A program made the translations under genes and the position numbers. From Arenicola marina (Eukaryota; Annelida; Polychaeta; Arenicolidae), in the NCBI GenBank assembly GCA_964019135.1, contig CAXHSH010000293.1, positions 62,001 through 126,000 of the forward strand: DNA of 64,000 bases. Reading direction: 5' to 3'. Positions 4,521 through 55,548 of the stretch are shown one piece after another. The notes below the pieces were generated by a model. The model searched no databases. It saw only the letters and a list, made by a program, of their open reading frames with translations, and was not told the origin of the DNA. Numbering within the stretch: position 1 is the first letter of the stretch; each line of letters starts with the position of its first letter.

Positions 4521-6886
4521 CTTTCTCTTGGCTTTTGCTCTTCTGCTTCTGTCATTTTGCCATCATTCTGTTTCGGTTCCACCACATCAGTTAGTTCTCG
4601 CTGATTTAGCCCCTGCACTGCTCTATCTTCTCCAGAATCATGCATAAGCGTGTTCATTCCGTATTTTGTGCCTGATCCTGTTTCAGCTGTTCAACGTCAG
4701 TCATTTCTCTCTGCACCAGTATCGGGTGTCCAACTGCAGTCACGTCTCCTTGTGATAGTTCTATCACTTTTGCCACCCTCACCAGATTCATCTCGTCTCC
4801 CTCTTTCACCACTTCCGTACGTTTTCTCTTCTCAAACTGTATCTTCTCCATTTCTTTGGATACCCCCTGCACGCTGTCCTCGTCCTTCACTTCGGTAACT
4901 CTTCTTTGCCCAAGGTCCTCTTCGTCCGCTTCTGTAACTCCTCCCTGGCGGAGCTCCATCATCTCTTCCTCCACTTCTGTATGTCTTCCCCGCTCCAGCT
5001 CGTCTTCATCCACTTCTGCAACTTCACTCCGCCCCAGATCCTCTTGGGGCACGTTTGTAACTGCGCCCTGCACTATCTTCTCTTCATCCACTTCTGCAAC
5101 TTCACTCCGCCCCAGATCCTCTTGGGGCACGTTTGTAACTGCGCCCTGCACTATCTTCTCTTCATCCATTTCTGTAACTTCACTCCGCCTCAGATCCTCT
5201 TCGGGCACGTTTGTAACTGCGCCCTGCACTATCTTCTGTTCATCCACTTCTGCAACTTCACTCCGCCCCAGATCCTCTCGGGGCACGTTTGTAACTGCGC
5301 CCTGCACAATCTTCTCTTCATCCATTTCTGTAACTTCACTCCGCCTCAGATCCTCTTCGGGCACGTTTGTAACTGCGCCCTGCACTATCTTCTCTTCATC
5401 CACTTCTGCAACTTCACTCCGCCCCAGATCCTCTTGGGGCACGTTTGTAACTGCGCCCTGCACTATCTTCTCTTCATCCATTTCTGTAACTTCACTCCGC
5501 CTCAGATCGTCTTGGGGCACGTTTGTAACTGCGCCCTGCACTATCTTCTCTTCATCCACTTCTGCAACTTCACTCCGCCCCAGATCCTCTAGGGGCACGT
5601 TTGTAACTGCGCCCTGCACTATCTTCTCTTCATCCATTTCTGTACCTTCACTCCGCTTCAGATCCTCTTCGGGCACATTTGTAACTGCGCCCTGCACTAT
5701 CTTCTCTTCATCCATTTCTGTAACTTCACTTCGCCTCAGATCCTCTTCGGGCACGTTTGTAACCGCGCCCTGCACTATCTTCTCTTCATCCATTTCTGTA
5801 ACTTCACTCCGCTTCAGATCCTCTTCGGGCACGTTTGTAACTGCGCCCTGCACTATCTTCTCTTCATCCATTTCTGTAACTTCACTCCGCCTCAGATCGT
5901 CTTGGGGCACGTTTGTAACTGCGCCCTGCACTATCTTCTCTTCATCCACTTCTGCAACTTCACTCCGCCCCAGATCCTCTAGGGGCACGTTTGTAACTGC
6001 GCCCTGCACTATCTTCTCTTCATCCATTTCTGTACCTTCACTCCGCTTCAGATCCTCTTCGGGCACATTTGTAACTGCGCCCTGCACTATCTTCTCTTCA
6101 TCCATTTCTGTAACTTCACTTCGCCTCAGATCCTCTTCGGGCACGTTTGTAACCGCGCCCTGCACTATCTTCTCTTCATCCATTTCTGTAACTTCACTCC
6201 GCTTCAGATCCTCTTCGGGCACGTTTGTAACTGCGCCCTGCACTATCTTCTCTTCATCCATTTCTGTAACTTCACTTCGCCTCAGATCCTCTTCGGGCAC
6301 GTTTGTAACTGCGCCCTGCACTATCTTTTCTTCATCCATTTCTGTAACGTATCTCCGCCCCAGATCCTTTTCGTCCACGCTGGTAGCTTCTGTCTTCACC
6401 ATCTTGCCTTCCTCCACTTCTGTGTCTTTCCTCTGCTCTATCTCTTCCTCGTCTAATTCTGTAACTCTTCTTTGCCCCAGGTCCTTTTTGTCCACCTTAG
6501 TAGCATCTCGCTGCTCTCTTGTAACTTCGACCTGCTCCATCCTTTCTTCTTTCAATTCAGTATGTTTTCCCCGCTCCAGGTCCTCTTCATCCACTTCTGT
6601 AACTTCTCCCTACTCCATTTTGTCTTCATCCACTTCTGTATATCTACCCCGCTCCAACTCCTCTTCGTCTAATTCTGCACCCTTCATTTGTCCCAGATCC
6701 TCTTCGTCTGTAGCTTCTTTGTGCTCCATTCTCTCTTCCTTCATTCCTGTATCTTTGCCCCCCGTCTGGTTGTCGCCCTCATCATCTACCTCTTCTGCCG
6801 CCATGTGCTTCACAATCTCCGCTACCCTGTCCCCCAGTTCGAATGACGTGTCCACGTCGAAAAGCGGCTCCTCAACAATCAGTTCA
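4521..6886 (-). CDS. Repeat-tail exon: 17 x 26-residue acidic repeats
   Basis: This exon follows a 139-bp intron (6887-7025, donor CAG/GTAACA, acceptor TTTAG/T) that joins the OTU-domain exon in perfect phase. It begins SELIVEEPLF and becomes a highly acidic tail. Seventeen 78-bp units encode variants of EEKIVQGAVTNVP + EEDLRRSEVTEMD; the second half alternates between an RRSEVTEMD type and a GRSEVAEVD type. Flanking degenerate units (EEDLERG, EEEIEQR) suggest an older, shorter repeat. A TAG at 6610-6612 interrupts it where neighbouring units have a CAG codon, and the frame ends at 4654 although coding character continues in the next frame to a possible donor at 4521. Long antisense frames across the array are a by-product of a stop-free 78-bp unit. 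Function is unknown; charge and repetition suggest a disordered binding tail. Confidence 0.65.
5028..6345 (-). repeat. 78-bp tandem repeat array, 17 copies
   Basis: Each unit includes the plus-strand string AACTGCGCCCTGCACTATCT. Unit types are ordered, and five consecutive units (390 bp) occur twice in succession: the blocks starting near 5499 and 5889 look identical by eye. This points to a recent block duplication inside an older array. Confidence 0.9.
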
Positions 6887-7025
6887 CTAAATGCAAAAGA
6901 GCAATATACATGGCAGTTAACACAGTGATTATCCAAAAAATGCCCGATTAAATAATTCGCTTGTAGCAATGATAATTCACTGCAACATGTAAATACTAGT
7001 GTGGATAATAGAATAATTATGTTAC

Positions 7026-9564
7026 CTGTCATCCGCTTGCTCCTGTGTCTCCAGCGACGTTAGTGGAAGAAGAAGCACGAAGTGATCAGGCCTCCAGCAA
7101 CGCAAGTTCGTCGCGTAATCAAGTTCAGGACGATGTAGTGTGCTCCACATGATATAATCCGTTTTCCCGTGAACATCTGTCCTGGGCATGACGAGCCTGT
7201 GATAATCCTGTTGCACATTGTATCCTCGATCTGGATACACCGACATGATCGGCCTTTGCAGCACACTTGCCATGGCCATGAGCTGCCACATTCCAAGAGA
7301 CACACCACCTCGCATCGCCTGCATCACCTCAGCTTCATATACTCTCCTGATTGCAGCGGGGGCATCTTTCAAATGTTCACCTGAGTAAACGGATGAGCAG
7401 CCTGCATAATGCAAAGCATAATTTTCTCGTTGTTCGTGCCCCCTGGCTAGGCTTTCATTTGCGAGATAGAAATCGGAGTGTATCACCTGCTCAATAATGA
7501 TACGCGTTCGCATTTCCACATGGTTCTCTTCGTGGCCAAACGCCAAAACACTGCCACATCTGCACAAACAGTTTCCGTCTCCGACTATAGTTCTCGGGAG
7601 CAGCATCGGATTTCCAGGTATGTCACTGGGCATTAGGTCCTTGGCATGAACATCAACAGTTGAGGTTACCTGGTTTGCTATGCTGACATCTGGTAAATAG
7701 GTCAACGGGTATCTAACAAGATGTTCATTTCTTTCCCAGATGAAATCCGCCAACATTTCGTAAGAGAAGCTCGAGAGCATTGCTGCGTGTAACGATGTGA
7801 AGAAAGCGTGTCTGTTATCTTCAGGGGAAAACTCAAAGCCGCTAGCTTCAGACAGCTGGTCTTCCATCACTCGGGTTCTTACTATCCCAGATGCCGGGGA
7901 AACAGTCTTTGAATCCCTCAACTTGGTATCTGTTCGGAAACTCTTCCGCCGTTTCCTTGCATTTTCATGCGTTTCAGTATCAGTGTGCCTTTTGTTTTGA
8001 CTTTTTTTGTTTCGAATCGGCTTTTTGGTGGGGTTTTCTGGTATTTCCTTAGTCAGTTTCGCTTCCATTTTACGCTCACAGTCGTTGGTCTCTTTTGTAG
8101 TTTTGGACTTTGGTTTTCGCGCACCTGACATTCCTCTAAATTCGCGTGTTTCATGTTGGCTCTTAAAGCTGCATTTGCGCTCCTTGAACAACACTGCGAT
8201 CTTCTCATCCTCTACTTGTTGCGGATATACGCATGGGTTTTCCGAATCAGTGCAACCACAGTTGCAGGTCAAATTTCGAGTGATCTGTATATTTGTATCT
8301 TCCTTCACGGTGCGAACTGAGTGTAGGCTTCGCGTACCCTTTACAAGCCTTGGAACACGTACATTCTGATGACGCGCGATTTCATTTACCAGATGAAATG
8401 TCCGTCGCATGTGAGCGCCTGTGCAAGTGCCGTATACCGCCTCCTTCTCCTTCGTGAGATGCGTGTCGCAGTATTCGTACATGTCAAGAACATCTCTAAT
8501 TTTCGCCCTTCTGGACATCACAGCTCTCCGCACACAAGACTTGATAACACCTGCTGCCCCATCACACGGCCCTTTTCCATGACGACTTCCAAAGAAATTT
8601 CGAGTAATTGAAACATTAGTTTCCGAACTGGCGGCAACAATACTTGCAAACGCAGTTTTGCCTTTGTACTGTCCCGCAGCACCGTCGGTAAATTGAATCT
8701 TTTGAGAAACTGGAACCCGTCTTCTTCTTAATTCTTCATCGGCTGTCTTTTCGAAAGTTGCTACCGCATGCACGTCGTGCTTGAGATCTTTACTAAGAAC
8801 GATGGCTTCATCCCGAATGACTTCACCACAAGTGCATGGGTAATATGACACAATGGGGTGCAATATTACCTGATCATGGCACCAGTGGGCTGATTGAGCT
8901 TCGTCCTGATAGGTACATAAGTAATTCTGCGCAAAATCCAAGACTTGCGCAACAGTGCCTTCCTTGACCTTGCAGATGGCTTCTTGAAATCTCTTCGCCT
9001 GCCATTTTGCGTTGAAAATGTGCTTGGCCATCACGTGCAAGTCTGACTCTAGTTTATCTATCAGTTGTGACACGGGAGCCTTAGCATTGACTAAGATCAT
9101 TTTCTTTCTGTTGCCGCTTACGGCAGTCCCTTCGTGAGACAGGCATGCGTCTGGATCGTCTTCTGTTTTGTTATGCGTGTTTGGGCCACACTTTGGTCCT
9201 TTGTTTTTGTCATTTTTCAAAGGGAGTGTGACTGTCATCCATCTGTGGTAACATACCTCATCCGTTAATTTACTTTCCAATGCTGTGAGTAGGGTCCGTT
9301 TAAATGGGACGGTCCCACAAGCATTGCAGCTTCGACTGATACAAATCATCTTGTGCCATGTTGAATCTTCGGGAATAGGACAAAGAGTGGATCCCAGGAT
9401 ATTGTCCTTTGATTGAAAGGGATCTTTAAGGCTCTTGTCTAGCTTTGGGTAAAGTGCATTCATCAGCATATCCAGGTTGCAACACTTTTCGCAAAGGGAC
9501 TGATTAGGTGGAGTCTGTGAGCTCAGCTTCACGTGTTTTGGCCGTAATTTAGCGAACGTCGAAA
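7026..9564 (-). CDS. Transposase-like core plus OTU cysteine protease exon
   Basis: This is the largest exon of the 3853-11040 gene, about 845 codons. Seen in order: a Cys-rich segment (CEKCC, SRSCNACG), a helical region, the NYLCTYQDEAQSAHW motif near residue 205, a CTCGE zinc-like pair, TDGAAGQYKGK near 283 and SRHGKGPCDG near 317, a second Cys cluster (CNCGCTDSENPC), a lysine-rich linker, and an OTU domain from about residue 651 with the catalytic Asp/Cys in GDGNC and His near 817. Known of the OTU family: deubiquitinating cysteine proteases. The fusion of an OTU domain to a transposase-like core is inferred to belong to one protein because no stop lies between them. It ends at a good splice donor rather than at its apparent stop. 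Substrates and mobility are unknown. Confidence 0.7.
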
Positions 9565-10120
9565 CCCTAGTTTGGAGGATTGGTTTTCTCTCATGAACTC
9601 TTCAAATGTGCGCTGAACCGTATTTTGTAAGTAGCTTTTCGTGAAGCCCTTCTTTGTGATCCCTCTCATTCCGCCCATCTTGACAGTGAGTGCGGGAGTG
9701 TCATAAAAATTTAGCACAGTTTCTTTTAATTGGTCTTTCATTGCCCTTCGCCCTTTCAAGATGTTCTGCACTGGAAAGAGTTGTTTGCTTCTGCCGATGA
9801 TGTCCAAGACTCTCCGGCGAATTATGGCATTCCTTGGTAAGTGTTGTTTCAACCTGTATACAGCCTGTTTGACTGCACTGGAGCTAATATGAGTCTCTGA
9901 GATTAGTTCCTGTGACTGAGCGTTTTGTTGCAATACAGATTTTCTCTTCATGTCGTACTCTCTTATCCTTCTTTTCTTTTGTGTGCTAGAATTCAGCCTC
10001 CATTTTCGCTTTTGCTCTCTCCAGTACTTTCTTTGTTGCTCTCTTTGCCTGTTTGTTTTTATACCTGGTGTTTGGACTTTTTTCATGTCCTGCGCGTGGC
10101 GCTTTCGATACCTTTGGGAC
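9529..10120 (-). CDS. N-terminal basic exon of the OTU transposase-like gene
   Basis: The acceptor TTCGTGCAG/GTCCC at 10121 joins in phase to the exon 10436-10528 (translating as YQEKEAARQKIKRAR...). The peptide is rich in Arg and Lys (TNRQREQQRKYWREQKRKW), as expected for a nucleic-acid-binding or nuclear segment, then becomes helical (HLPRNAIIRRRVLDIIG). The reading frame stops at 9529, but the downstream frame already matches the conserved STFAKLRPKHVKLSS stretch from about 9560, so one T appears to be missing from the short T run at 9562-9564. Confidence 0.6.
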
Positions 10121-19588: not shown

Positions 19589-19597
19589 AGGTTGATG
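19589..19597 (+). repeat. Target site duplication, left
   Basis: AGGTTGATG immediately precedes the terminal TAGCCCTG of the inverted repeat. The identical 9 bp follows the right end at 28016-28024. Confidence 0.85.
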
Positions 19598-20106
19598 TAG
19601 CCCTGAAGAACCCAGGACTCGCTGCCGCTCGCCCAAGCCAAGGTCCTGAAGTGCAACCGGCAAATCCTCAGCGAAATGAAACACCTCCGCTTCAATCTGA
19701 CTGTGATCTAATTGTGCGAGCATAGCGCGACCAATAATTATTATACTTCAATTCTACAGACCTTTAACTATAAATTTACCTTTATTTTGTTTCCTTACAG
19801 AACCGAAGAAGTCCACAGTGCCGGAGATAATCCAAGTTTCATATTTAGCGCTTCCGCCGCCATTGAAGTGACAAGCGGAAAATTCTGCCTAGGCGGCGCT
19901 ACGGGCACCGGAAGAACATTTCTCTGCCTTACCTCGCAGAAACGCCATGGGCGCTCGCAGGACCGTATCGGCGTCACAATAACGTATAGCAAATTTTAAA
20001 CTCCAGAACTTTTGTATTGAAAAAAATAAATTATTTTGTGAATCAAGGCAATTATGATGTTATACTTTTATTCTGTTTTCGACATACTACACTCTTCTTA
20101 CGCCTG
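19598..20106 (+). repeat. Left terminal inverted repeat (~509 bp)
   Basis: It pairs with 27512-28015. Mismatches are few: for example CCAAGCCAAGG here against CCAAGG on the right, and single-base changes near 19823, 19965, 20055 and 20073. A 95-codon frame (19712-19999) recurs in the right copy; since it lies wholly within the repeat it is probably incidental. Confidence 0.9.
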
Positions 20107-20196
20107 CATATAATTATATTAAATACACCAGCATTTATTTAAAAAAAATATCTGTGTATTTTGGTATTAAAAGAGCCTTGAGCACGTGTGATCAAA

Positions 20197-22551
20197 ATGG
20201 ATGCTGAAATAGATAACGTGAAGAAAGATTTAGGAATTGCATACCACGTACGAAGGGAACAAGTGGATGGCATTCGGTCCATTTGTTCAGGACAGAGCGT
20301 CTTTGTCGTCCTGCCTACTGGTTTCGGGAAGAGCGACATAGCCATTTTCCCACCCTTGATTCTGGACAAAGTAACGTCACTTTATACCGATAACGCACAC
20401 TATGTTTAATATAAACAGCGACATATGTGGTAAAGTTTTATAATTTGTTATCTGTAAGATTCTAAAGTATCTCCCAATTATAACCAGTAAAGCCCCTGTG
20501 TGAGGATAATCTTTAGCCATTTTGGCTACCTCGCTACAATACCCTTTCTTTATATATTTTGTTAATAGTTGACAACCGGGAAGAAACACATGGCCGTTGT
20601 GGTTAGTCCACTCACTGGTCTTATGTGGGACCAGCACACGAGGTGGTCAGACCGAGGTGTGAAATGCCTGTCAATTAGCGAGCTGGAAAATGAGTCGACA
20701 GGTACGGGGTATTATTATAAACATAAATTTAATCCTGTGCCAAACTTAAGTCCTACCTTCCACGAAAGGAATAAAAAAATGTACGTTAATGGCAAATGGG
20801 CTACTAAAAAAAAAGCTATGATCATGCCCATTAATGTGTTACATGAGATATCGAAAACATTTATACAATAAAACAAAGTTGTGTTTCAGAGGTCACTGAT
20901 GACAATTGTTCAGTGGTTTGGGCTTCCCCCGAAAGCCTGCTAGGTGACCGATGGGAACAAACTCTTAAGAAGTGGAGTCGTAGGACATGTGTCCTAGTTA
21001 TTGACGAGGCGCACTGTCTCAGTATCTGGTAACTCTTCACTTTGCCTTCATAGAAACTAATACACTGTTACGACAGCTCTGAAGCCTAACAATACCTAGA
21101 AGTTATATAGTATTTACTTAATAGAAAACTTTTTCATATAGTGGTATACCAAAACCTTAAATTCTTAAATAATTAAATGTTACCCACAGGACCCCTTTGC
21201 GGAGAGGCAAACGTTAATGTCGGATATTTCTTAAAAACTTTTATGACATTCTGTGTTGGATTAGGGGTCCCTCTTTCCGACCTGATTATGCTAAAGTGGG
21301 TAGGCTCCGGGCGGTGTTGACATGTCTAGTGTTGATAATGACGGCGACAGCCAGCAAGGACATCTTCCACGACATCCTCCAGAAACTATTCCTGCAGCCA
21401 GAACAGATCCATACAATCGCCGTGGTTCCTGATAGGTAAGGCTCATGTATAATATATTTTGTGTGTAAATAAAAAATTATTACTTTGTAATATTAACATA
21501 TAACCACAGCAGTTAAGGATATGTTAGACCCCATATATATCGATTGAATGCAGACTTTATGTATAAGCATTTATTGTGCCCGAAATGTTCCTTATATCAA
21601 ATGAAATTAATTTACTGTAACGAACTTTTGAAAACTTCAGGCCAAATATCTACCTGAGGTGGAATGAGAAAGCTACGCTGTCCTCAGCTTTCGACTGGTA
21701 TGTCTCAGAACTCCGGCGTGACGACGTTAGAGCGGCCAAGGCTATAATCTTCTGTCGGTATGATAATTTTTTAATTATGGCACACTAAGGTAAAACTTCA
21801 ATTACATTAATGATAGCATAGTTTAAAAAAGGAAAAATATCATACTTTGTTTATTTTATACGACCACTAATTATGCAATTATCGAATAGGTAACCGCATA
21901 CAAGATAAATATATATAATGAAACATAAATATCTATAGTATGATATATTTTGTGCATACTTTTGTAACTTCATTTATTCTGTATGCTACCTTACCTATCC
22001 ACAGAACCATCCAAGCAGTGACAGAGGTATTCGGCCACTTGTCGGCGTTTATGCCTTACCGACCTAGGGACAGGCCGAGAGGACAATACATAATCCAGAT
22101 GTATCACGGCCACCTGGGAAAGGCAAGTCAGACCGTCATCATGGATGAGTTCTGTCGGCAAAATAGCCGCATTCGCTGTGTGGTATCGACGGTGGCGTTT
22201 GGTATGGGAGTGCAGATACCAGACGTCCGGTTTGTGCTGCACTGGGGGCCGTCTTCCAAACTTGTAACCTACTGGCAGGAGATAGGACGATGCGCAAGAG
22301 ACGGAGATCCAGGAGAGGCCGTCATGTACTTGACACGGCGGTCTACGCCGTCTGATGTTTTCGACCAGGGCATGGTAACACTGGTGAAGGAGCTCGGCAG
22401 CAAGTGTCTCAGGCAGTACATTCTTGACAGCCTAAAGCTTCCAGAAATGGAGACGGCAGACATCGTTAATTGCTGTCACGGAAAAAGGTGCTGCACATTC
22501 TGCACAGAAAAAGCAGCGAAATCAACGGGAAAGGTTAAACCAAAAACATGA
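20197..22551 (+). CDS. RecQ-like DNA helicase of the transposon, 426 aa, intact
   Basis: Six exons: 20197-20370, 20569-20701, 20890-21028, 21265-21435, 21641-21757, 22005-22551. All junctions are GT/AG and keep phase, giving 427 codons with no internal stop. The start ATG (MDAEIDNV) is preferred over the GTG nine bases upstream. Motifs: Walker A TGFGKS at residues 41-46, DEAH at 141-144 followed by CLSIWG and SFRPDYAKVGRLR, the RPNIY segment, FGMGVQIPDVRFVLHW (motif V) and QEIGRCARDG at 336-345 (motif VI with arginine finger). A short Cys cluster (NCCHGKRCCTFC) matches the zinc-binding region of RecQ proteins. Known of the family: 3'-5' ATP-dependent DNA unwinding. Inferred role: strand separation or repair during transposition. 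It is shorter than cellular RecQ helicases and lacks an HRDC domain. Confidence 0.85.
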
Positions 22552-22598
22552 CTGTAGATTTAGTACACCTGCCAAGCAACATCACATCGCTCAGCAGC

Positions 22599-25500
22599 CT
22601 ACATTAGTCCGGTAAAGGTTTGGGCTGTCCAATTGTCCATAGCAACACAAAGCTCCCTTAGCCGCTGGCCCATCCCTCGGGGATCTCTGAGGCTATCCCA
22701 CCTGGGAACTTCAGGGAAGGCAACGTGCTGGCGAGGCCCGCGACGGTCGTATCTCATCAGTCCCATGGGGTGAAACTCCCGGATGAACGTCGTGATGTCT
22801 CGGCTATAGCTGGGCGTGTACCGCTTCACCGCCATGTCTCGCCGCGAGGTACCAAGTTTACTGAGAAGTTCGTCTAGAAGCTGTCCGAACGCCCCGCTCA
22901 GCTGACTGCACCTCTTCAGTTGCTCTTCCGTGTAATTTCCCCGGGACCGGCCGAGCATCTCTGCCGAAGATTTAATGACCTATATGACTCGTAACATCTA
23001 CCGCTATGTAAATAATTTTTATGCGTGACGTCAGGATCTATTGTTACAAAAAATGTCGCTATGGCTACACTTATCTATTGGAAACGTCGCCGGCGCAACA
23101 ATGTCATGTTACTGTATTTCAACCGCCTTCACATTGATCTTGTATATAAACGTTATTATTTTCCTCAGAAAATATATTTGAATATTAATATCACCAACTT
23201 ACCTTTGAAATCATTGTTAAGAAATTCATTCACCAAGTCCAGCCCGATGTTGCCTCCAGGTCTCCCACTCAAGTTGGCGACCCGCTCCCAAGTGAGCTCG
23301 TGGCGCAGACGCTCGGGAGCGCATCCACCCGTATCTGTCGTGGAAATTAAAAAAAAATTAAAAGATGCAGGACATAGTGTAAATTTTCATTCATATAAAA
23401 ATGAAAATTTTACGTCGTATATCCATTTATGTCATCGTGCATTAGATCTATACATGATATTAATTACTGACCTTCGTCATATTTTAATAGATGTTTTGTA
23501 CAACTTACACGCAAGGAGTTTGTGGGCGATTATGACATATTTGTAATGCCGCCGGTGCCAGAAATCTAGGAGGTTGAGGCGCCAGAAGGAGAGTAGTCCA
23601 GGACCGTCGCCTTCCCGCACGGTGTCCTTCAGGGCCATGTGGGACAGGCCTCTCCACAAGAGAGACAGGTTGTGGCCCAGGACCTTGTCGTCGTCATCCT
23701 CGCCATCCTCACACTCCTGGCTGCAGTACCAGAGCCCTAACAAAAGCGATAAATTAACTTATATATAAAATATTATAAATAAATCCAATAGTTTTCTATT
23801 TTTGCTGGATTTTTTTGTAATTGATAGATACCTAATTGAAATTAAAGTTTATTATATTTATATATAAATTTCACTTACTCGGGATGTCTGCATAACGTAG
23901 ACCTAGGCAGGTTGGATGGTACTTCTCACACCGTTTGCAGTCATCGCCCAGACGACATTGCACGACGGCCTCATCCCTCTTCTTGTGACAGATACAATGA
24001 ATGTACCCGTCACTGTCGGTGCAGGCCTGCGAGCAGTACCAGTCGCCATCGGGTTGGTCCTCAAGTGGTGGATTGGTGCAGCCTAAGTGGAACCACGAAA
24101 TTGCGCACAAGTTGTTGCAGCACTGGACCATGGTTCCACCAAGACCTGGCAGTTATAAATAATATACATTAGGGAGGGGACAAGGAAGGGTATGATATAA
24201 AGGTATCATAAATATGTACAATACATAATATTTATCTTTGTTAATCTGAATAGGACGATTAATTTGATTTTTACTTACCCTCGTTGCATGTGCAGTAGGG
24301 ATAGAAATCCGCATCCTGCCCATCAAAGGACGCGTTGGCCACTCTGATTTCCTCGTCGTCGATTGGCTGCCAGCACCGTTCCACGATACGCGCGCTGAGT
24401 CGCCTCAACCAGGTCTGTTGCTGCAAGGGGTCGTCTGGGAGGTCCGCAGGCCGACTATCCTGGTCGGGCATGCCCGTCAACGCCAACGCGAGAAGCAGGG
24501 TGAGACCCTCCGTCGTGAACTATCAGGGCAATAAGACGTGCATAAGGACGTGTGTTAAGAACCAGATAAAGATGCAATTTATATATTTTGTTTAATGTCT
24601 ATATTAATTAGGTAGGCATATGTTTCGTTTTTCACCTGGATGAGATCGACGACGTGCTGGAAAGTTGTGCATGACGACCTTCTCCACAGACCGGTGCCGA
24701 AATAAATCTTTGATGTTGAATAGGGTCGCCGAGTCTGCAATACTGCCACCCTTGAAGAAGGCATTCATGGTATCCTGAAAAATAAAAATAAAGTTATAAA
24801 CTAAATGAGTTAATACTTGAAGATTTATTTAATTTTTCATCTGTCATTTTATCGAAAAATATATAATACTGGTATATAGCGGCTTATAAAGTACATTGTT
24901 CAGATTTATGATATAATATTTCATCGGAACATGTTTATGGTATACCTGCAGCATGATGCCTTCGCGGTGAAACTCCTGGGGGGCCGGAAGCAGCCCTTCC
25001 AGCGCATCAACGGGCGTCACCGCCAATGTTTGCGCACGCTTCGCATGGATCATGCGCTCGACGCTGAGTCCGTCCCCGTTGCAAGGTATGGTGTGTACGC
25101 GGTCCCCAGCCTCAGGGACGTAGCGGTGTAGATGAGCCATGATGTCGATGGTGCCCGCGTTGGTGGACGGATCCGCATCGATGACCCCGAGATTCACCAC
25201 GGTGCTCTTTCTCTTCATAGCACGTGACTGGCCATGAGGGAGGTGCAACTCAACGTGAAGGTGACTCAATGCCGGAAGATGAGACACCAGCACCCTCTCC
25301 ACGATGGCAGTCATCCTTTGCTGGAGTACGGAATAGTCAGACAGCTGAGGGAAGAAGCTGGCCGTATCCAGACGAACAGCTGGGATCACATCGTCGCTGG
25401 ACAGATGCAGGCTAGGCGTCCGGTGTTCAGACGCGAAAGCGAGAGCCATCAAACGAAACTCGTTTCCTTGCTCCCGGCTCTGGTGTTTCCTGTGCTGCTT

Positions 25501-26757
25501 GAACTGCACGTTGTCCCAGGTGACGCTGAAAGACCGCGGAGCAGCATCCGGATCAACCCACAGCCGCCTGTCAACAACGCGGCCCGCGACCCCTCTCTCA
25601 TGTGCCTCGATCTTGCCCTTCAGGGCCACGATACCGGCGTCATGGTGCTGGCAAAGGGAGTCTACTCGCCGGCGGGTCGCGTCGACCCCAAGACACAGTC
25701 CCATTGAGTTCATCCTTTGAAAGGTTTTGTGCGACGCCCCTTGACGCCACAAATCCAACCCCAAGGCCGCCTGGGTGAAATTAAACACCTTAGGACGAAG
25801 GGTGAACATTACGGATGAAAGACATACACCCATCCGGCAGTTACACCGTGTGATGGCCTCGTCGTCGGTCAATGTGCTGCAAGACAAAAATTCGCATAAT
25901 AAGTAATAATATATATTTTTTTGACAGCTGCAAATAATAAAGACAATTAACTATTATATATAAAATATAATATATATATTTCGTTAAAAAAATTGGAATT
26001 TTACAAGTATTAATAACGTACCGTCGGGCGCCCTTTGGTCCCTTGTTGCGGAGGCGCTGAAATGACGTATGAGGAGGCATTGCAGCATCGAGCAGACGCA
26101 CCAAAGTTGGTCCCGAAGCGCGGCACTCCTCTACTAATGTTCCCCACGAGAACGTCTCAAGAGACTCCGGCGTAATAGGACGTGTCATGGAGGGTAAGGC
26201 AGCTCGTCCAGCAGGCCGCACAACGGTCTGCACGTCCTCCTTTATCAGTCCCGCGACAATGTCCAACATTGCCTCTTTGGCTGCACGGCTGTGGCGGATT
26301 AGTATGCGGAACATGGCGTTGTAATGAGAGAACCGCAGCAGATTCCCCGCCGTGGCCTTAAAATTGTTCGAAACCGGCCGCCTGAAGGGGGGTGGTTGAG
26401 GCCTGGCTGGCGAACCGCGTACAGGGGACCGTACAATCTCCTGGGCGTCCCCATAAGATTTATTCTTTTTGGATCGCGAACAGGCGACTCGGACCCGCGC
26501 ACCGTCGCGCCTGAGCCTGAATGGCCAGGGTCGTCGTCCGTGCAATGGAATGCCGGTACACTGTCAGAGGCATCAGGAGACCCTCCGCCAACCACTCCCC
26601 AGCACCTATGGCACACAAAGTCAACGTCATGCCCAAACCATTGGCGAGCTACCTCACTCGTAAAAAAGGCAGTGACCTTTTTCCTCTTGTAGCCCCTATT
26701 TCTCTTTACAAAATCTTTGTGACAATTTACACACGACGATTTGAATGCTCGCCACAT
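22599..26757 (-). pseudogene. DUF6589-like transposase with N-terminal zinc finger and two PHD fingers (two frameshifts)
   Basis: Eight exons on the minus strand: 26757-26022, 25876-24946, 24774-24636, 24519-24279, 24145-23879, 23736-23509, 23334-23203, 22960-22599. Junctions are all GT/AG and in phase. The start is MWRAFKSSC. Domains in order: a C-x2-C...C-x2-C zinc finger (CVNCHKDF...CHRCW); a helical region; the core with PCNGDGLSVERMIHAKRAQ and LQDTMNAFFKGGSI, typical of DUF6589; two PHD fingers (CTC...WYCSQAC and CICHKK...WYCSQEC); then ELTWERVANLSGRPGGNIGLDL and a C-terminal tail. One base is missing in the A5 run at 26466-26470 and one C is extra at 24659-24660. The two cancel: the exon sum, 3036 bp, is exactly 1012 codons. 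The gene runs convergently with the helicase. DUF6589 as a transposase domain is my inference from its context. Confidence 0.75.
23509..24291 (-). CDS. PHD-finger exons within the transposase
   Basis: Two complete PHD-type zinc fingers are split across introns. The first begins CTCNEG at the end of the exon ending at 24279 and ends WYCSQAC; the second begins CICHKKRDEAVVQC and is completed in the next exon as RLWYCSQEC. Cys/His spacing fits C4HC3. PHD fingers read histone tails (methylated or unmodified lysine), so chromatin-directed targeting is plausible but inferred. Confidence 0.75.
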
Positions 26758-27511
26758 GTTGACATTTATATAATGAATACGAGGCTCATTACCACTACAA
26801 TAGACTATCGATCTTCAAACTCTCAGAACGCGCCTTGTGTCGGCGGTGGATCTGCCTTTTTATGAGCTGCAGATTTCAATAGCGCACTTTAGCGGACTGC
26901 GGTTGCTTAGTTGTAACAAAGTATCATAGGCGCCAGATCAGTAGAGTATAATTTCCGTAGCGGTAGAAACTATGTACGTTAAGTAGGCCAAAGATAATCA
27001 TAAATGTTTTGGGTGAGATAGCAAATAGACAGACAAGACTCAAATTTTGCATAAAGCTCACACAAGAGAAGTAACAACAACACTGCTCAACCAGTGAGTT
27101 ATAACTGTAGATGAATAATATTACTTACTTATATATTTCAAGAATTAATTTTTTTTATCTAAAGTGTCAAACTGTATGTACACTATTTAATCACCGTCTA
27201 ATAGTGTTGTGAAAATAATAATCTGGACGCGCATTTACATATTTTATATTTAAGTCAGCGAGTTCATGTACACGTTGTGATAAACAATCAATGGCATTAG
27301 GCAAGTGTAATAGGGTATACTTCGGTTGTTGTTTTATATTACTATAATATTAAATAATGTTCCATTATTGTATGCATTGTTTAAGATATGCTATCGTTTG
27401 TAAATATTTAAAAGGATAGAAAAGGAAAGACACAAATTATTTTTATTTAATTCGGTAGTACAATATCATGTTCAGCCACGACCTATTGAGGGTAGGACAT
27501 TTCATTATGTT
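26758..27511. other. Non-coding 5' region of the transposase gene within the element
   Basis: AT-rich sequence between the transposase start and the right inverted repeat; presumably it holds the transposase promoter. No recognisable motif beyond AT richness. Confidence 0.4.
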
Positions 27512-28015
27512 CAGGCGTAAGAAGAGTGTAGTATGTCGAAAACACAATAAAAGTATAACATTCTAATTGCCTTGATTCACAAAATAATTTATTTTTTTCA
27601 ATACAAAAGTTCTGGAGTTTAAAATTTGCTATACGTTATTGTGACGCCGATATGGTCCTGCGAGCGCCCATGGCGTTTCTGCGAGGTAAGGCAGAGAAAT
27701 GTTCTTCCGGTGCCCGTAGCGCCGCCTAGGCAGAATTTTCCGCTTGTCACTTCAATGGCGGCGGAAGCGCTAAATATGAAACTTGGATTATCTCCGGCAC
27801 TGTGGACTTCTTCGGTTCTGTAAGGAAACAAAATGAAGGTAAATTTATAGTTAAAGGTCTGTAGAATTGAAGTATAATAATTATTGGTCGCGCTATGCTC
27901 GCACAATTAGATCACAGTCAGATTGAAGCGGAGGTGTTTCATTTCGCTGAGGATTTGCCGGTTGCACTTCAGGACCTTGGGCGAGCGGCAGCGAGTCCTG
28001 GGTTCTTCAGGGCTA
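27512..28015 (-). repeat. Right terminal inverted repeat (~504 bp)
   Basis: Reverse complement of 19598-20106, ending CTTCAGGGCTA. It is followed by the target duplication AGGTTGATG (28016-28024). Confidence 0.9.
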
Positions 28016-29300
28016 AGGTTGATGGTATCTTTTAACCAACATTGAATGACAAACGAACGCAGACAACGTATATGTGATAGATTCTAAGTGAAGCATAAAT
28101 TGCGAACCATACCATTACGCTTGGCACGATATACGTGTGAAGTGTTCGGGGGCCCATAGCCCTTTTGCAAAGCAGGTGATGTAAATCGGCTCTGCACTCC
28201 AGTTAGCAAAAACTAAACTGATTATGTAACTGACACGCTATACGTCTCCATATCATGCGTCATTTGCTAAAGCACTAATGTGAAACAGTTCCACTTACAC
28301 AATTTAGTGAATCGAATGATAAGTTACGTCTAGGAGTTTCTGTTTAGATAACGAGCAAATGCTCAGAGAAGGTAAGTGAGAATAATGAGCGATATTGTTA
28401 AGGTAACAAGCAATGTTCTTCTTTTTCGAATATACAATGTAAGTAAACTCTGTTTTATCTATTCATGATGACTTTATTAAAAGAAATCTTTGAATAACCA
28501 CTGAACTTGGGCTGGATGGATCTACGTCAGTAATCAACAAGGGAATGCGTGGTGCAGATCCGACTTTTATGACACCAATCCTTCTTATGAAGGGACGTTT
28601 GGGATCTTTCGACGTAACGATCTATGGTGTAGGCATAATTCACGCCACGACTCAGTGAGTTTATGTGGAGTCGAGCAATAACCGAATTGTCTCATCATCA
28701 ACTATCTGTCTGGTGCGAGGTCCTTCGTCATCGAATTTGTCACGATGTATATATAAGATGCACATCCCGCAGCTTCAGCGGTATGGCAGTCTCTTTAGTT
28801 TACCGTTACACCACCAAACAGACATACGCGCGGTCTCTGAAAACCAACGAATCGTGTCATCATCTCATTAGTCTCAGTGATGGCGGCCCCTCTTCAAAAG
28901 ATGGCCTTCTTTCTTCTAACCGAGTACGTTTTCTTTCATTGCGCCTTGTGACTGAAGTCTTTATAAACCCGCTGCGTACCAGAGAAATTACAAAGTTCAT
29001 AACGTGAAAACATAAAATGTCAGTGTAAACATTGACATTTTAGGATATGCCAACGAAACAAACGAGTGAGGGATAATTTAACACTTGGCAATTATTTGTA
29101 ACAAGTTGACTCATATTGAATGAAGTGATGTGCTTCCCTAACGAAAATATTTATGAAACACGTTTTAAGTGAAACATTATGTTAAATACTGAACATCGTT
29201 TGATAATGTAAGACTTTCGGAAAAGTACAATAATTTGTCTAAGTGACGAAAAATTGATTTGAACCATGCATACCATCATTACCTAAAAATGGAGTCAGTC
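28016..29300 (+). repeat. Degenerate AT-rich array, right part
   Basis: It continues the interrupted unit: GCAAACCAT-like strings, CCCTTTTGCAAAGCAGGTGATGTAA at about 28159-28183 and GTTTAGATAACGAGC match units on the left of the transposon. No coding content was recognised. Confidence 0.55.
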
Positions 29301-36057: not shown

Positions 36058-36330
36058 TTTGGATGGCCGCTCAGGTGTGGACGTGATTTTTGCCGTCTGG
36101 GAACACGAGAGCGAAGAAATGTGTCTGTCTCACGTTCATATATCTCATTAATGGACAATGTGTAACGCGAACTAGCAAAGGCTAAGTGGAGACATGTTTT
36201 AGGGAACCAGGAATACTTGATGTGCAGTTAATTCCGGAAGAAAGTCACTGTTGGACAGAACTTGGGTGTAGCTGCCATTATCGCCTCCCTCACAAGGCCC
36301 TCGACCAAGGGGACGGTCTCCACATGAAGA

Positions 36331-37239
36331 ATGGGGCGCACTAAACGCAGGCGAAACAGCAGCGGAAAAACACCTGAGAAAGTCATAGATAAGAAACAAA
36401 AGACCCTTGCTGCCTGGATTGAAGCGGATGACACCGAAGAAAACAGTTTTGAATCGTATCCGGAAATGTCAAGCATGTCGGTTGACATGAACAAAAAACT
36501 GGATAGTATCCTTATATTAGTATCCTGTCTACCTCAGTTGAAGGAAACCGTAGCTGCCATAAAAGGTGAGCTCGACTCTCTACGCAGTCTAGCTGAGCTC
36601 AACAGTGCTAGGCTGGATGACCTAGAGAAGCAGTATACTGGATTAAAAGAACGAGTCAATACTCTTGAAAAAAATGACACAAATGCCAATGCAAATGTAA
36701 ACGACCTCAAAGCGGACAATACGTCTCTAAAAACCAAAGTCGTCGCTCTTGAGACCTATAGTCGGAAGGAAAATCTTATTTTCCATGGCATTCCGGAGTC
36801 ACCGTGGGGTAACCAGGAAAACTGTGCCCTTCTAATTCAGGATATCATGTCAACAAAATTGAACATGGAGAAGGCAGTTGATATCCAAATACAACGTTGT
36901 CACAGGTTAGGCCCAAAGCCCACCCCTGCCACGAGAACCAAAAGATCGCGGCCCATCATTGTTCGTTTCGCCTTTTTCAACGACCGCGAGAAAGTCTGGG
37001 CCCGGAAGACCCAGTTACGTGGGACTCGACTCTTCGTTGACGAGGACTTTCCGAAAGCCGTCCAGGACGAGCGCCGCATTCTGCTGCCTGTGATGAAGGC
37101 CGCCCGGTCGGACGGCGCCCGCGCCACCGTATCGGGAAACAGGCTACTAATCAACGGCAAGAGCTATGATGTTGGGACATTGGCCACACTACCGGAAGCC
37201 TGGCGGAGAATTCCTCACGCGGCGCAAGTTGTATCATAA
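36331..37239 (+). CDS. LINE ORF1 protein (L1 ORF1p-like), 302 aa
   Basis: An RNA-binding ORF1-type protein that packages the element RNA. The first ~50 residues are basic and polar (MGRTKRRRNSSGKTPEK); about 60-155 form a long coiled coil (RLDDLEKQYTGLKERVNTLE); an RRM-like region follows with RKENLIFHGIPESP and HRLGPKP, then a C-terminal domain (RPIIVRFAFFNDREKVW). This order is that of the Transposase_22 / L1 ORF1p family. The frame is intact from ATG to TAA and lies 776 bp upstream of ORF2. Confidence 0.85.
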   Translation: MGRTKRRRNSSGKTPEKVIDKKQKTLAAWIEADDTEENSFESYPEMSSMSVDMNKKLDSILILVSCLPQLKETVAAIKGELDSLRSLAELNSARLDDLEKQYTGLKERVNTLEKNDTNANANVNDLKADNTSLKTKVVALETYSRKENLIFHGIPESPWGNQENCALLIQDIMSTKLNMEKAVDIQIQRCHRLGPKPTPATRTKRSRPIIVRFAFFNDREKVWARKTQLRGTRLFVDEDFPKAVQDERRILLPVMKAARSDGARATVSGNRLLINGKSYDVGTLATLPEAWRRIPHAAQVVS

Positions 37240-38015
37240 GGACATATGAATGAGGTGGGGTCCTAAAAAAAAATTAATGTAATTCGATACTGGCGCCGAT
37301 ATGGAAATTTGTTATGCAATAGACTTATGGCTGTTATTTACCTGAATTTCGCTTTTGAGACTGTCCCTTAAGTGTGGTGTTGACCCACGTGGATTATATT
37401 TATGTTTATTTCATATTGTGCAAGGGGTGTATTGACGTGTATTGTATGAATTTGTTTTGCTCGTGACGTGATTGAAGTGGCCCCTGCTGAACGACTCCAG
37501 TCGAGTCGGAGCGCACTGCTAGTGTTTTTTGTGATGAACGGTAACGTGCTGCTGCCTAGACGCAGTCAACCAAGACGGAGCCGAGTCCCCCTGCCCCGAA
37601 AATGCTATTGCCTTCGTGTGTGTGTCATATGACACACGTGTATTACTCCTGTGATCAAACACACGTCGCCAGTGCCTAAAATGTGTTTAGAGAAATGAAA
37701 TGAACATTGGGCTCGACTCACAACGCAACTCACAACGTAATTTAAAACGCCTTATGCATATTCATGTGGTGACGCTCTCGTGTTTTCCTCAGCACCTGTG
37801 CGCAAAGCTGTGCTGCGCTACCTTCACCCCATTTTCCATGCGATGTTCATTTTTATTCTTATTTGTTTATTGTTTGTTTATTGTACTGATTCGTTGTACG
37901 CGTTTTGAGTTATCGCCAGTCTGCGCTGTAAATACGATCAGCTTGATTCAAATCGACCTGAGTACAAATGGTAGAACCAAGGTAGTATGGAAAAATATAC
38001 ACTTGTACTTTTCAA

Positions 38016-38957
38016 ATGTTAGATGTGCATATCACTGAAAGTGAGGATTTTTTGATGAAATTTGGCGGTGTGGAGCAGAATTCTCTGCTCAATACATTGA
38101 AGTCGAATGATAGAAACGTAAGATATAACAATTCAGAGTTGGATTACATAAAACTATCACCCTATTACACAGAAGACCAATTCTTATCGACTCTCTGTGA
38201 GGGTCGGGGTGAATTCTCTATTATGAGCTTAAATGTCGCCTCTATATCATCAAAATTTGACGAATTCAAAGTGTTAACAGATATTTTAGAAAGTAAAGGT
38301 ATTGAATTATCTGCAATATGTTTACAGGAGAGTTGGCTGTCTGACGACTCTGACCTATCACTGTTTAACTTAGAGAATTATACACTTATCTCTACTGGGA
38401 AGTATTGTAGTGCTCATGGTGGACTAATTATATATTTAAACAACAAGCTTAAGTACAAAACTATTTCCCCACATGTTCGATCTGATATATGGGAAGGGCA
38501 ATTTATAGAAGTCGCGGGGCGGCACTCCACAGAGAAAAAAGTGATATTAGGAAACATTTATCGGCCTCCCCGTGATATAAATGAAAATTATATTCAGTTT
38601 ACAAAAGAATTATCTTCTACCCTTCACCATCTTGAGAAAAACCCTTGCGAGGTTATCATTGCAGGCGATTATAATATAGATCTTCTCAGTCTGAATGAAA
38701 AACCAGTTTTAAGTGAGTACTTCGACACCGTTCTTTCCCGAAGCTTTTTCCCCCTGATAACTCTCCCAACAAGACTGTCCAAATATAGGGGAACTTTAAT
38801 TGACAATTTTCTCTGTAAACTGACTCCGAACACATTAAGTACAACTGCTGGTATACTAATCAAAGGTTTGTCTGACCATTTGCCATATTTTATTTCCCTC
38901 AATCTTAATATCCGACTTTCTCACAAAACCCCGACCCATGTACAGGTAGAAAAATAG
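38016..38957 (+). CDS. LINE ORF2, apurinic-type endonuclease part
   Basis: Endonuclease/exonuclease/phosphatase fold that nicks the target for reverse transcription. Visible motifs: SIMSLNVASI (N of the active site), CLQESWL (Glu), GNIYRPP, IIAGDYNIDLL (D-x-N) and GLSDHLPYF (SDH). The frame ends at a TAG (38955-38957), but the reverse transcriptase frame continues in the same phase 21 codons on, so the two are one ORF2 with a single nonsense codon. Confidence 0.85.
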   Translation: MLDVHITESEDFLMKFGGVEQNSLLNTLKSNDRNVRYNNSELDYIKLSPYYTEDQFLSTLCEGRGEFSIMSLNVASISSKFDEFKVLTDILESKGIELSAICLQESWLSDDSDLSLFNLENYTLISTGKYCSAHGGLIIYLNNKLKYKTISPHVRSDIWEGQFIEVAGRHSTEKKVILGNIYRPPRDINENYIQFTKELSSTLHHLEKNPCEVIIAGDYNIDLLSLNEKPVLSEYFDTVLSRSFFPLITLPTRLSKYRGTLIDNFLCKLTPNTLSTTAGILIKGLSDHLPYFISLNLNIRLSHKTPTHVQVEK

Positions 38958-41186
38958 GACCAGAGTTCCCTTCTTAACTTTAAAGCACATCTTGCAAAGG
39001 CAGAAATTAGCAGTAAAATGGAAAATGATATGCACGCCGATCCAAACATCAACTACAAAATACTAGAGGATGTACTCACAAAGGCAAAGCGTGATCTCTT
39101 GCCAAGTAAACTAGTCAAATTTAATAAGCATAAACATAAGAAATCGGCTTGGGTTACGCAGGGAATTATCAAATCTATTTCCTTTAGAGACAAACTTTAC
39201 AGGCGGCTAAAAGCAACGCTACCAGATTCCATGCAGTATGGAACATTGAAGACGAATTTAAAGACTTATAACAAAATGCTAAAAAAGTTGATTGCACAAG
39301 CTAAAACTGATTATTACCTTAAACGCTTTGACAAGTGCAAAAATGACATTAAAGGAACATGGAGAGAAATCAAATGCTTACTGAATAATAAAAAGGACAC
39401 GAAATACTTTCCGGACTATTTTAATATCGAGGGCAAGCCGATGGAAAATAGACAACTGATAACAGATAAGTTCAATAATTTCTTCGTCAATATCGGCACA
39501 ACTATCTGCGGCAATTTAGATTGCGCAAACTCAACACCCTACAAGTCTTATTTGAAACCTCTACCCACATTAAATAAACTATGTTTCACAGAAGTAAATA
39601 AAGCCCAGATATTGGGGACCATAAATGAATTAAAATCCAAATCAAGTTCAGGTCACGATGGAATTTCGGTAAAATTGCTCAAGATAGTCAAGGAAGAATT
39701 ATGTGAGAGTATTACTCTGATAATCAATCAATGCCTAACGACAGGGATCTTCCCCGACCAGTTAAAACTTGCCAAGGTAATTCCAGTCTTCAAAAAAGAT
39801 GATAACACAAATATCGATAACTATCGACCAATATCTCTATTACCAGCAATTTCTAAAATCTTCGAGAAAACTATATTTACTTTCTTGTATGACCATTTTC
39901 AGAAGCAAAAACTCTTTAACTCTAACCAGTATGGGTTCAGAAAGAAGCACTCCACTGAACATGCTACATTAGAACTGATAGACAGAACTATACAAAAGCT
40001 TGATGAAGGAAAAATTCCTATTCATATATATCTGGATTTATCCAAAGCATTTGATACATTAAATCATAACATTTTATTAAACAAACTGCATCATTATGGC
40101 GTATCTGGAACTGCTCTAAATCTCCTAAAAAGTTATCTTGATAGTCGCAAACAGTACGTTATGATAGATAATATACGATCTGAAGAAATGCCTGTCACAC
40201 GCGGGGTTCCACAAGGTTCAATCCTAGGGCCGCTCCTCTTTATAATCTATACCAATGATTTACCCCACGCCAGTGATGTTTTTAAGTTTATAGTATACGC
40301 TGATGATACTACACTGTTTAGTACACTGGATGCATCAATAACTGGGAGTAAAAATGAAGCGCAAAACATAAATGATGAATTATCCAAGATAAACAATTGG
40401 TTAAAGGTAAATGATCTGTGCCTAAACATAGCAAAAACTAAATACATGGTACTCTACAAGCCCCAAAAAAATGTAAAAATTCCAGAACTATACATTGCCA
40501 GGAACAAACTAGAGTGCGTCGATACCTTTGATCTGCTAGGACTAACAATAGATAAACATTTAACATGGCACAGCCATACAAACAAACTTGCTGCAAAACT
40601 AAGCAAAGTTGTTGGTATCCTAAAGAGGCTAGGAAACTTCCTTCCCCAACACATACTGTATACCATATATATGTCACTGTTTCAGAGTCAACTATATTAC
40701 TGCATTCTGGCATGGGGATATCGAGTTGACAGGTTATTTAAAATTCAAAAACGGGCAATTAGGATTATAACAAAAAGTCATTATATTGCACACACGGACC
40801 CGCTATTCAAATATCTCAAAATCTTGAAACTAAAAGATATACATACATTACAACAACTAAAATTTCACCACCAATTCATAAATAATAACCTACCAGCTTA
40901 CTTTCTCGAACACATGACATTCCTAAAGATAAATGACTTACATAGTCATAACACAAGACAAAACCACACATTTCATATCCCGACTACCAAACACAAATTC
41001 TGTCAACTTACTTTAAGACATAGTCTCATCCATCACTTAAACAACACCCCCTCGCATATCATTAGCAAAGCAACCACACATTCGCTGAAAAGTTATGCGT
41101 CTCATATTAAGGTTCATTTATTAATCGGTTATAAGGAATGTTGTGAAGCCTCATATTGTTATGTCTGCCACACACTGACGGAATAG
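38958..41186 (+). CDS. LINE ORF2, reverse transcriptase part
   Basis: Non-LTR reverse transcriptase of the CR1/Jockey type. Motifs: NYRPISLLPAISKIFEK, QYGFRKKHSTEHA, LDLSKAFDTLNH (first catalytic Asp), RGVPQGSILGPLLF, and FIVYADDTTLF (catalytic YADD), followed by a thumb and C-terminal region (LGLTIDKHLTWHSH). It is in frame with the endonuclease across the TAG at 38955. The ATG at 39018 is probably not a natural start. Otherwise intact through residue 722, ending at a TAG. Confidence 0.88.
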   Translation, partial: DQSSLLNFKAHLAKAEISSKMENDMHADPNINYKILEDVLTKAKRDLLPSKLVKFNKHKHKKSAWVTQGIIKSISFRDKLYRRLKATLPDSMQYGTLKTNLKTYNKMLKKLIAQAKTDYYLKRFDKCKNDIKGTWREIKCLLNNKKDTKYFPDYFNIEGKPMENRQLITDKFNNFFVNIGTTICGNLDCANSTPYKSYLKPLPTLNKLCFTEVNKAQILGTINELKSKSSSGHDGISVKLLKIVKEELCESITLIINQCLTTGIFPDQLKLAKVIPVFKKDDNTNIDNYRPISLLPAISKIFEKTIFTFLYDHFQKQKLFNSNQYGFRKKHSTEHATLELIDRTIQKLDEGKIPIHIYLDLSKAFDTLNHNILLNKLHHYGVSGTALNLLKSYLDSRKQYVMIDNIRSEEMPVTRGVPQGSILGPLLFIIYTNDLPHASDVFKFIVYADDTTLFSTLDASITGSKNEAQNINDELSKINNWLKVNDLCLNIAKTKYMVLYKPQKNVKIPELYIARNKLECVDTFDLLGLTIDKHLTWHSHTNKLAAKLSKVVGILKRLGNFLPQHILYTIYMSLFQSQLYYCILAWGYRVDRLFKIQKRAIRIITKSHYIAHTDPLFKYLKILKLKDIHTLQQLKFHHQFINNNLPAYFLEHMTFLKINDLHSHNTRQNHTFHIPTTKHKFCQLTLRHSLIHHLNNTPSHIISKATTHSLKSYASHIKVHLLIGYKECCEASYCYVCHTLTE

Positions 41187-45800: not shown

Positions 45801-47333
45801 TGCGTTCCCCATCCGGAAAAGACAAATAAACTGACCCGTAATGGTGACCGAATTTGGTTGTGCCGTCCGTTCCAACGGTAACGTTACCTGCAGACGATTG
45901 TAGCACCTCCTGCAGGTGTAGCATCGCGAGAGACCTGGCCTCTAGGATGAGGTACTTCGCACATGTTGCTTGAGGCATCCGTCCGACGGTTACACCGGCC
46001 ACCTTCTCCAGAACAGTCCTGTAACGCAATATCAACCAACTGAGATGCGACGATGTTCGTATAATTTCCCCCCTTGTCAAATTTCTAGATTTGTCCCTGA
46101 TATGCATCGTGTGCAGTACCTGATAATCTTCTCGATGTTCCTGGTTCCAACATTGAGGCTTAGCAGTTCCATGTAGACTTCCCGGATGACGTCGGTGTAA
46201 CGGCCATCCTCAAAAACCTGAACATCACCCTGCGCCATGAACTGCTGAACCTCCTCTTCATACGCAGCACACCTGCAGGATTAGGAGTCACATTAAACCA
46301 TTGTCTGAAGACATCGTTTGTCAAAATTATCAAGTATGTGAAACAAATTCACCGTACCTGTTCTGCCAAAAGTCTAACTGGGTATTCAGTTCGGCAATCC
46401 GTTCGTTGCCTCCGTTATCGGCAGCGCGCTGCCGATAAAAGTGCTTCAGCGATGCGCGTCGGTGCTTCTCCTGGTACAGCCTTGGTTCGGTGGTTGCCAA
46501 CTTGTCATCTTTCAGTTGGACCTCTCTCTCCAGGTTCTCAACCATCTGCTCGTGCGCTTTTAGTTGCCTTCGAAGGTCACCCGCTTCCGCTGTATTGGTG
46601 AATGTTTTCAATGAGTACATGTTTGACAAAGTGGAAAAAAGTGACCATCTTGCGTCATAAAGGAATTATCCTTACCAGTTGCCGCATCCAGCTTGGCCTG
46701 CTTCTTGTCGTTCTTCATTCGATAGTAGCGCTCCATTCTTTTCGTCTGGCGCAGCTGCTGCCGGACATCCTCCAGGCGGGCATTGCACGAAGACCTCTCC
46801 GCTCGCTTTGCCTTGAGACGCAGCAAAGTTTTTCTGCTGCAGCGCTCGGACCTGCGTTTCTAAGTCGCCTACCTGCTTCTGTAGCTGAATGCATGAGACT
46901 GAAGCAGGAGACTGTTCAGAACAGATAAGCTGGTCACTGTGAGTCAGACGGTCATCACTTGGAGCTACCGGCTGTGCCTCCTCACTTACCAAGAAAGGCT
47001 GAGACGCAAACTGCCGGTATGTGGACTTGTTCCGTAGTTTCTTCAGACGCCTACACTTCGACACCAACCGCAAAGCTCGCATCCACAGAGGCTTGGCATG
47101 AGTGCGCACATCTCTGGAAGGATTGAATGATTGAATTAGTGACTTAAAAAGACTTACCTTGTTGTCCTCAGTCTGAAGGGTAACGACCACCTCGCAGACA
47201 AGTTGGTTGCTGATGACGTCTTCAGACAATGTCCCACCCATCCAGGCACCGGTCTGAACCATGGTCCGTGTCAAGCCAAGCTGCTTGCATACTGTCGCGG
47301 CGTTACGACGGGAAGCAGCGGCGGGTCGCGAAC
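42900..47333 (-). CDS. Second transposase-like gene: coiled coil, RNase-H-like core, Tudor-like acidic C-terminus
   Basis: At least 12 exons: 47333-46677, 46589-46358, 46272-46120, 46018-45205, 45098-44973, 44841-44677, 44587-44413, 44325-44207, 44098-43718, 43631-43405, 43302-43142, 43076-42900. Most junctions are GT/AG and phase-matched; the 43631 acceptor is weak, and the last join is one base out of phase. Seen in order: a helix-turn-helix-like stretch (ATVCKQLGLTRTMVQTG); a Lys/Arg-rich coiled coil (LEDVRQQLRQTKRMERYY); a core with VTVGTDGTTKFGHHYGSVYL and NNFWCGLHFLVGLSEQANKT; KFDNASEDLLEEARSVPRTN; a helical basic region (INKEQKDQREREQ); a WYLAVVADVHV Tudor-like segment; and DYWFTGKVLGFNSETT before an acidic tail. 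Proteins of this type occur in many copies in marine invertebrates; a transposase role is inferred. One extra A in the A5 run at 46829-46833 shifts the first exon. The start exon was not found. Confidence 0.6.
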
Positions 47334-55478: not shown

Positions 55479-55548
55479 ACCAGAATGGGTTTCGAACCCA
55501 TACTTGCAATGCCATAGGCAGTGCTGTGCTACCATTACACTATCTGGT
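55479..55548 (-). tRNA. tRNA-like sequence (pseudogene or SINE head)
   Basis: Acceptor arms ACCAGA/TCTGGT pair, a D arm has GTG...CAC with A-box TAGTGTAATGGTAGC, and a perfect T arm ATGGG/CCCAT encloses TTCGAAA (B-box GGTTCGAAACC). The anticodon arm is CACTG/CATTG with a C-T mismatch and loop CCTATGG (anticodon TAT), lacking the usual T33. Likely a decayed tRNA or the head of a SINE. Confidence 0.4.

Follow-up and report, generated by a model that had tools for sequence, protein, structure and literature searches.

According to an excerpt of PMC10045372, which cites Kojima 2020, AcademH transposons generate target-site duplications of 9 or 10 base pairs (bp), whereas AcademX transposons generate duplications of 3 or 4 bp and encode a nuclease; the title of Kojima 2020, cited in PMC10045372 and PMC10799480, places AcademH in animals and fungi. 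Long inverted repeats and 9-bp duplications are attributed to Mutator elements, and likewise to maize Mu, in the abstract of PMC2774946. An excerpt of PMC9587614 describes KolobokH, known there only from fungi, as combining a DDE transposase with a RecQ helicase, which in a red-alga Kolobok lies on the complementary strand. Within a 64,000-nucleotide stretch of DNA of the polychaete Arenicola marina (contig CAXHSH010000293.1, positions 62,001 to 126,000; hereafter the window), we identified a complete DNA transposon of 8,418 bp (window 19598-28015). With a probability of roughly 0.87, it is a copy of an AcademH-type cut-and-paste element in which a helicase assists a DDE transposase.

The element resembles AcademH in combining a transposase with a helicase and in the length of its duplication, and it also has terminal inverted repeats. 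By sequence it is separate, the best relatives found being 37-41% identical, and a new AcademH-type family is the best fit when AcademH is represented by its published description and not by Repbase sequences. AcademX would belong to the same superfamily, if the Academ assignment holds, but differs in having a 3-4 bp duplication and a nuclease in place of 9 bp and a helicase. The AcademX nuclease is of the XPG type, and XPG was absent among the families reported for ten of the element's open frames and its two spliced proteins. A sequence-only reading of the window had proposed AcademH or a related lineage. The 9-bp duplication, the RecQ-type helicase and the DUF6589 match support AcademH, and the duplication, which that reading took to be longer than usual for Academ, is no anomaly, since AcademH is published at 9-10 bp (PMC10045372, same excerpt).

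Ends, target duplications and copies of the element

The left end of the element, TAGCCCTGAAG, lies at 19598 and the right end is its inverse, finishing at 28015; the start reads TAGCCCTGAAGAACCC, the inverse of which stands at the other end. The inverted repeats are approximately 505-520 bp long and 98-100% complementary, with a single 5-bp length difference between the arms. Copies were searched for in the assembly containing the window (867 Mb, 762 contigs), where the left end gave at least 59 matches. Both ends were present in 17 of 27 loci inspected, while one or both were missing in the other 10, partly due to the short DNA stretch read. An exact flanking duplication was found in 16 of the 17 two-ended copies, and the longest exact one measured 9 bp in all 16; no flanking duplication was found for the remaining two-ended copy, L018. 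The duplicated sequences varied, with no strong consensus except a central T (11/16). Thus the exact ends of a complete element, the near-identical 505-bp inverted repeats and the perfect 9-bp duplication, all described in the sequence-only reading, were borne out, and other genomic copies, which it had named as a check, confirmed both the duplication length and the ends, the latter being shared by a full-length copy on C12.

Kolobok elements insert at TTAA and duplicate 4 bp. The 16 exact duplications observed here, all of 9 bp and of no fixed sequence, argue against a helicase-bearing KolobokH, or another superfamily that independently captured a RecQ gene, as the source of the element. KolobokH shares with it a DDE transposase and a RecQ helicase and differs in duplication length; its reported restriction to fungi, and DUF6589 as the sole Pfam family reported for the transposase, likewise make such an origin exceedingly improbable.

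Thirteen of the 16 copies with a duplication form a non-autonomous family of 0.80-0.95 kb per copy. What this 0.9-kb family has in common with the window element is limited to the outermost ~287 bp of the ends, at approximately 77-80% identity. Across the 14 copies compared (these 13 and L018), median pairwise identity is 96%, and the lowest value, 68%, comes from a comparison with L018. At L011 on C11, a 564-bp copy of a related family encloses a 190-bp end of the window family (~97% identity), and a 9-bp duplication brackets the whole nested structure.

The full-length copy on C12 is 8,428 bp long, lies in the opposite orientation and is flanked by a different 9-bp duplication, AACACAGGA. 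It is identical to the window element at 8,354 of 8,410 aligned bases (99.3%); the divergence is 0.4-1.4% depending on the compartment compared and approximately 0.6% overall. A 99%-identical copy on C14, in which element positions 47-1275 are fused to 7706-8418, is an internal-deletion derivative. Movement of the element in the recent past, as suggested by the sequence-only reading, is supported both by two insertions that are approximately 0.6% apart and differ in their duplications and by the deletion derivative at 99% identity. Present autonomy is not supported: since its transposase frame is interrupted, the window copy is probably not self-sufficient now. As the transposase is broken in both full-length copies, an intact copy may exist elsewhere, the protein may be supplied by related copies, or the breaks may be assembly errors.

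The transposase

The two convergent spliced genes noted earlier from sequence, for a helicase and a DUF6589-like transposase, were upheld by the gene models (Table 1). An intact window transposase was considered and rejected, since the frame is interrupted inside exons 1 and 3. The C12 copy also has a broken exon 1, at another position, and one of its splice donors is GC, not GT. With the breaks written as X, the window transposase comprises 1,012 amino acids (aa), of which residues 420-933 matched Pfam DUF6589 at 119 bits (cut-off 27). DUF6589, which we take to be the Academ-type transposase, was the sole Pfam family reported for this protein at E up to 0.5. Fold matches were of the DDE type, with the P element and Hermes at higher Z than ISCth4; a Foldseek search against the PDB found nothing at E below 0.001, and a literature search on DUF6589 found no paper.

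These matches also bear on a Mutator-like (MuDR) identity, which the long inverted repeats and 9-bp duplications would also fit. MuDR carries two convergent genes as well, but is not known to encode a RecQ helicase. The restriction of the Pfam result to DUF6589 and the ranking of P element and Hermes above ISCth4 both stand against it. The MULE domain would be the point of difference: none was reported at E up to 0.5 for the 1,012-aa read-through, yet MULE is listed beside DUF6589 for the relative P0145. On balance, we regard a Mutator-like identity as very improbable.

The search with the window transposase, in which scoring was limited to candidates sharing most words, found a single relative, P0001 of Branchiostoma floridae. 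A search from P0001 yielded 33 proteins including itself, with amphioxus, sea stars, sea urchins, an acorn worm and bivalves among the sources. In an alignment of the window protein with 23 of these 33, residues D367, D514 and E885 are strongly conserved (Table 1) and likely form the catalytic triad of a DDE transposase. A tree of 18 sequences (the window protein and 17 of the 33 relatives) places the window protein in one group (99/96) with proteins from amphioxus and sea urchin and two from sea stars, outside which lie two further sea-star proteins and the acorn-worm and clam proteins.

The helicase and its pairing with the transposase

The helicase gene encodes a stop-free product of 426 aa, and all five of its introns are GT-AG; the frame is also intact in the C12 copy, in agreement with the earlier description of the gene as intact. 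The Pfam scan reported DEAD and Helicase_C for this protein and no RecQ-specific domain. Among solved structures the top match was 1oyw (E 4e-39), which we take to be E. coli RecQ, followed by RecQ, WRN and RECQ5. A tree of 34 sequences (the window protein and 33 of 120 listed relatives) placed the helicase in a group (100/98) whose other members are short RecQ-like proteins from a sea star, a priapulid and two acorn worms, nested in a larger group that includes mollusc proteins (100/98) and lies apart from bacterial RecQ.

Own-genome searches gave at least 131 matches to the large transposase exon and at least 149 to the last helicase exon, merged to at least 109 and 130 loci, respectively. 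A convergent helicase lies within 10 kb at 68 of the 109 transposase loci (61 within 5 kb, 74 within 20 kb), compared with a mean of 1.9 and a maximum of 8 pairs in 200 trials of random helicase placement; some paired loci are segmental duplicates, so the 68 pairs are not independent events. Three transposase loci have a divergent helicase and 38 have none within 10 kb, and no transposase match lies within that distance of 60 of the 130 helicase loci.

The unpaired loci would fit a helicase that is a passenger or dispensable, with no necessary part in transposition. Wider DNA was read for three of the 38 unpaired transposase loci, on C78, C450 and C17. The C17 relative (L059-L060) retains an open large transposase exon, 84% identical, with no helicase match in the 14.4 kb read or nearby, and is possibly a helicase-less derivative; four more close but decayed relatives also have no helicase within 10 kb. 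Both observations argue against a helicase that is strictly required, and they make the helper reading slightly less probable and a passenger slightly more so. In addition, helicase codons of the near-identical window and C12 copies show 6 changing and 3 silent differences. On the other side, convergent pairs persist down to approximately 35-45% protein identity, and the unpaired loci on C78 and C450 (2/38) represent one broken transposase remnant on two contigs, 99.97% identical over 10 kb. Selection argues in the same direction: the ratio of non-synonymous to synonymous substitution rates (dN/dS) of the helicase exon is 0.12 (174 codons, against C18), as low as that of the transposase exons (0.18 and 0.13 against C17, with 284 and 112 codons; 0.15 against C18, with 119 codons), indicating that both genes are under purifying selection between divergent copies. 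A dispensable helicase is thus unlikely, and we retain the AcademH-type element with a helper. The gene order of the C18 copy is the same as that of the window element in the parts read. A separate lineage made up of the unpaired transposase loci was also considered.

The two small contigs C78 and C450 (loci L069 and L070) either arose by a recent duplication or represent a haplotype left unmerged in the assembly. A divergent transposase-helicase lineage is present on two chromosomes (L071 on C7 and L072 on C9), 99% identical over 8.2 kb including both genes. No inverted repeats and no duplication were found at the limits shared by these two loci; a variable tandem repeat forms their left end.

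PHD fingers and the proposed mechanism

Two tandem C4HC3 PHD-type zinc fingers are located between D514 and E885, and they are conserved in the amphioxus, echinoderm, acorn-worm and clam relatives, several of which bear the UniProt name 'Zinc finger PHD-typ...'. Among rows with a letter, the zinc ligands do not vary in 15 of their 16 columns, the exception being the first cysteine of finger 1. Finger 1 of the window protein matched the PHD finger of Arabidopsis ING1 (E 8.7e-13), and its 19 best matches were all ING-family fingers; finger 2 of P0001 matched Arabidopsis ING2. A literature search combining Academ, Branchiostoma and PHD found no paper.

In ING2 one residue of the aromatic cage is a tryptophan ahead of the zinc-binding histidine. 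This tryptophan is present in 19 of 24 rows for finger 1 and in 21 of 23 lettered rows for finger 2, where the window copy has a lysine. Judged by eye, the alignment shows no retention of the cage on its tyrosine side. Binding of histone H3 trimethylated at lysine 4 (H3K4me3) is not assured, because the cage is only partly retained.

We propose that the DUF6589 protein would act as a DDE transposase that binds the long inverted repeats, excises the element and inserts it at a target opened by cuts 9 bases apart on the two strands, subsequent gap filling producing the 9-bp duplication. The RecQ-type helicase encoded by the convergent gene would serve as a helper, most likely by unwinding or remodelling DNA at the ends of the element or at the repair gap, and the ING-like fingers in the insertion domain of the transposase may anchor the complex on histone H3 tails. 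A more speculative extension, which we consider less likely than not, is that across deuterostomes and molluscs the transposase reads H3 tails through two ING-type PHD fingers in its catalytic insertion domain and so steers insertions to chromatin of a particular state, where a dedicated RecQ helicase opens the DNA.

The RAG1/RAG2 system offers a parallel, with a DDE recombinase fold containing an insertion domain and a PHD finger in the system; the finger of RAG2 reads H3K4me3. The window element differs in having two PHD fingers, both of them part of the transposase. The conserved tandem fingers provide a testable idea on insertion sites that can be compared with the RAG recombinase and, along with the genome-wide gene pairing and its exceptions, may be of interest to specialists. 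The main question raised is why a cut-and-paste transposon retains a RecQ helicase. For its study the genome offers two near-identical full-length insertions with clean ends, natural pairs ranging from 99% to approximately 35% identity, and a few close relatives without the helicase.

Table 1. Predicted features of the transposon, with positions in the window
Feature	Position	Strand	Basis
Left 9-bp target-site duplication, AGGTTGATG	19589..19597	.	compared across copies
Left terminal inverted repeat	19598..20119	+	terminal repeat alignment
RecQ-type helicase gene, six exons	20197..22551	+	gene model, Pfam and structure matches
Helicase exons	20197-20370, 20569-20701, 20890-21028, 21265-21435, 21641-21757, 22005-22551	+	
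DUF6589 DDE transposase gene, eight exons	22599..26757	-	gene model and Pfam; exon joins match P0001 alignment
Transposase exons	26022-26757, 24946-25876, 24636-24774, 24279-24519, 23879-24145, 23509-23736, 23203-23334, 22599-22960	-	
D367 (WDNVQ), putative first catalytic residue (codon)	25513..25515	-	D in 21/22 lettered rows
D514 (GDG), putative second catalytic residue (codon)	25072..25074	-	D in 22/23 lettered rows
Two tandem C4HC3 PHD-type zinc fingers, exons 4-6	23690..24300 (approximate)	-	ligand columns and ING PHD match
E885 (LVNEF), putative third catalytic residue (codon)	23225..23227	-	E in 21/24 rows, D in 2, K in 1
Right terminal inverted repeat	27499..28015	-	terminal repeat alignment
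Right 9-bp target-site duplication, AGGTTGATG	28016..28024	.	perfect match to left unit

Other features of the window

Three long open frames of 303, 323 and 742 aa at window 36328-41183 (+) resemble a non-LTR (long terminal repeat) retrotransposon, and the 742-aa frame contains what we take to be a YADD-type reverse transcriptase motif. Two open frames of 651 and 859 aa lie at 4657-9601 (-), the former consisting mostly of a 78-bp tandem repeat (17.6 copies, 5003-6373). The open frames 53671-54105 and 56305-56745 (-) resemble pieces of a Harbinger-type transposase. Similar protein pieces (CGLHF.VGL.EQANKTL.LWENLMHNQQ...) are encoded at window 45160-46209 (-) and at L069:4225-4832 (-). The latter piece adjoins the broken transposase remnant of C78/C450, which suggests that another repeat family was inserted beside it. 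A single tRNA match (41.7 bits) is located at window 55477-55549 (-).
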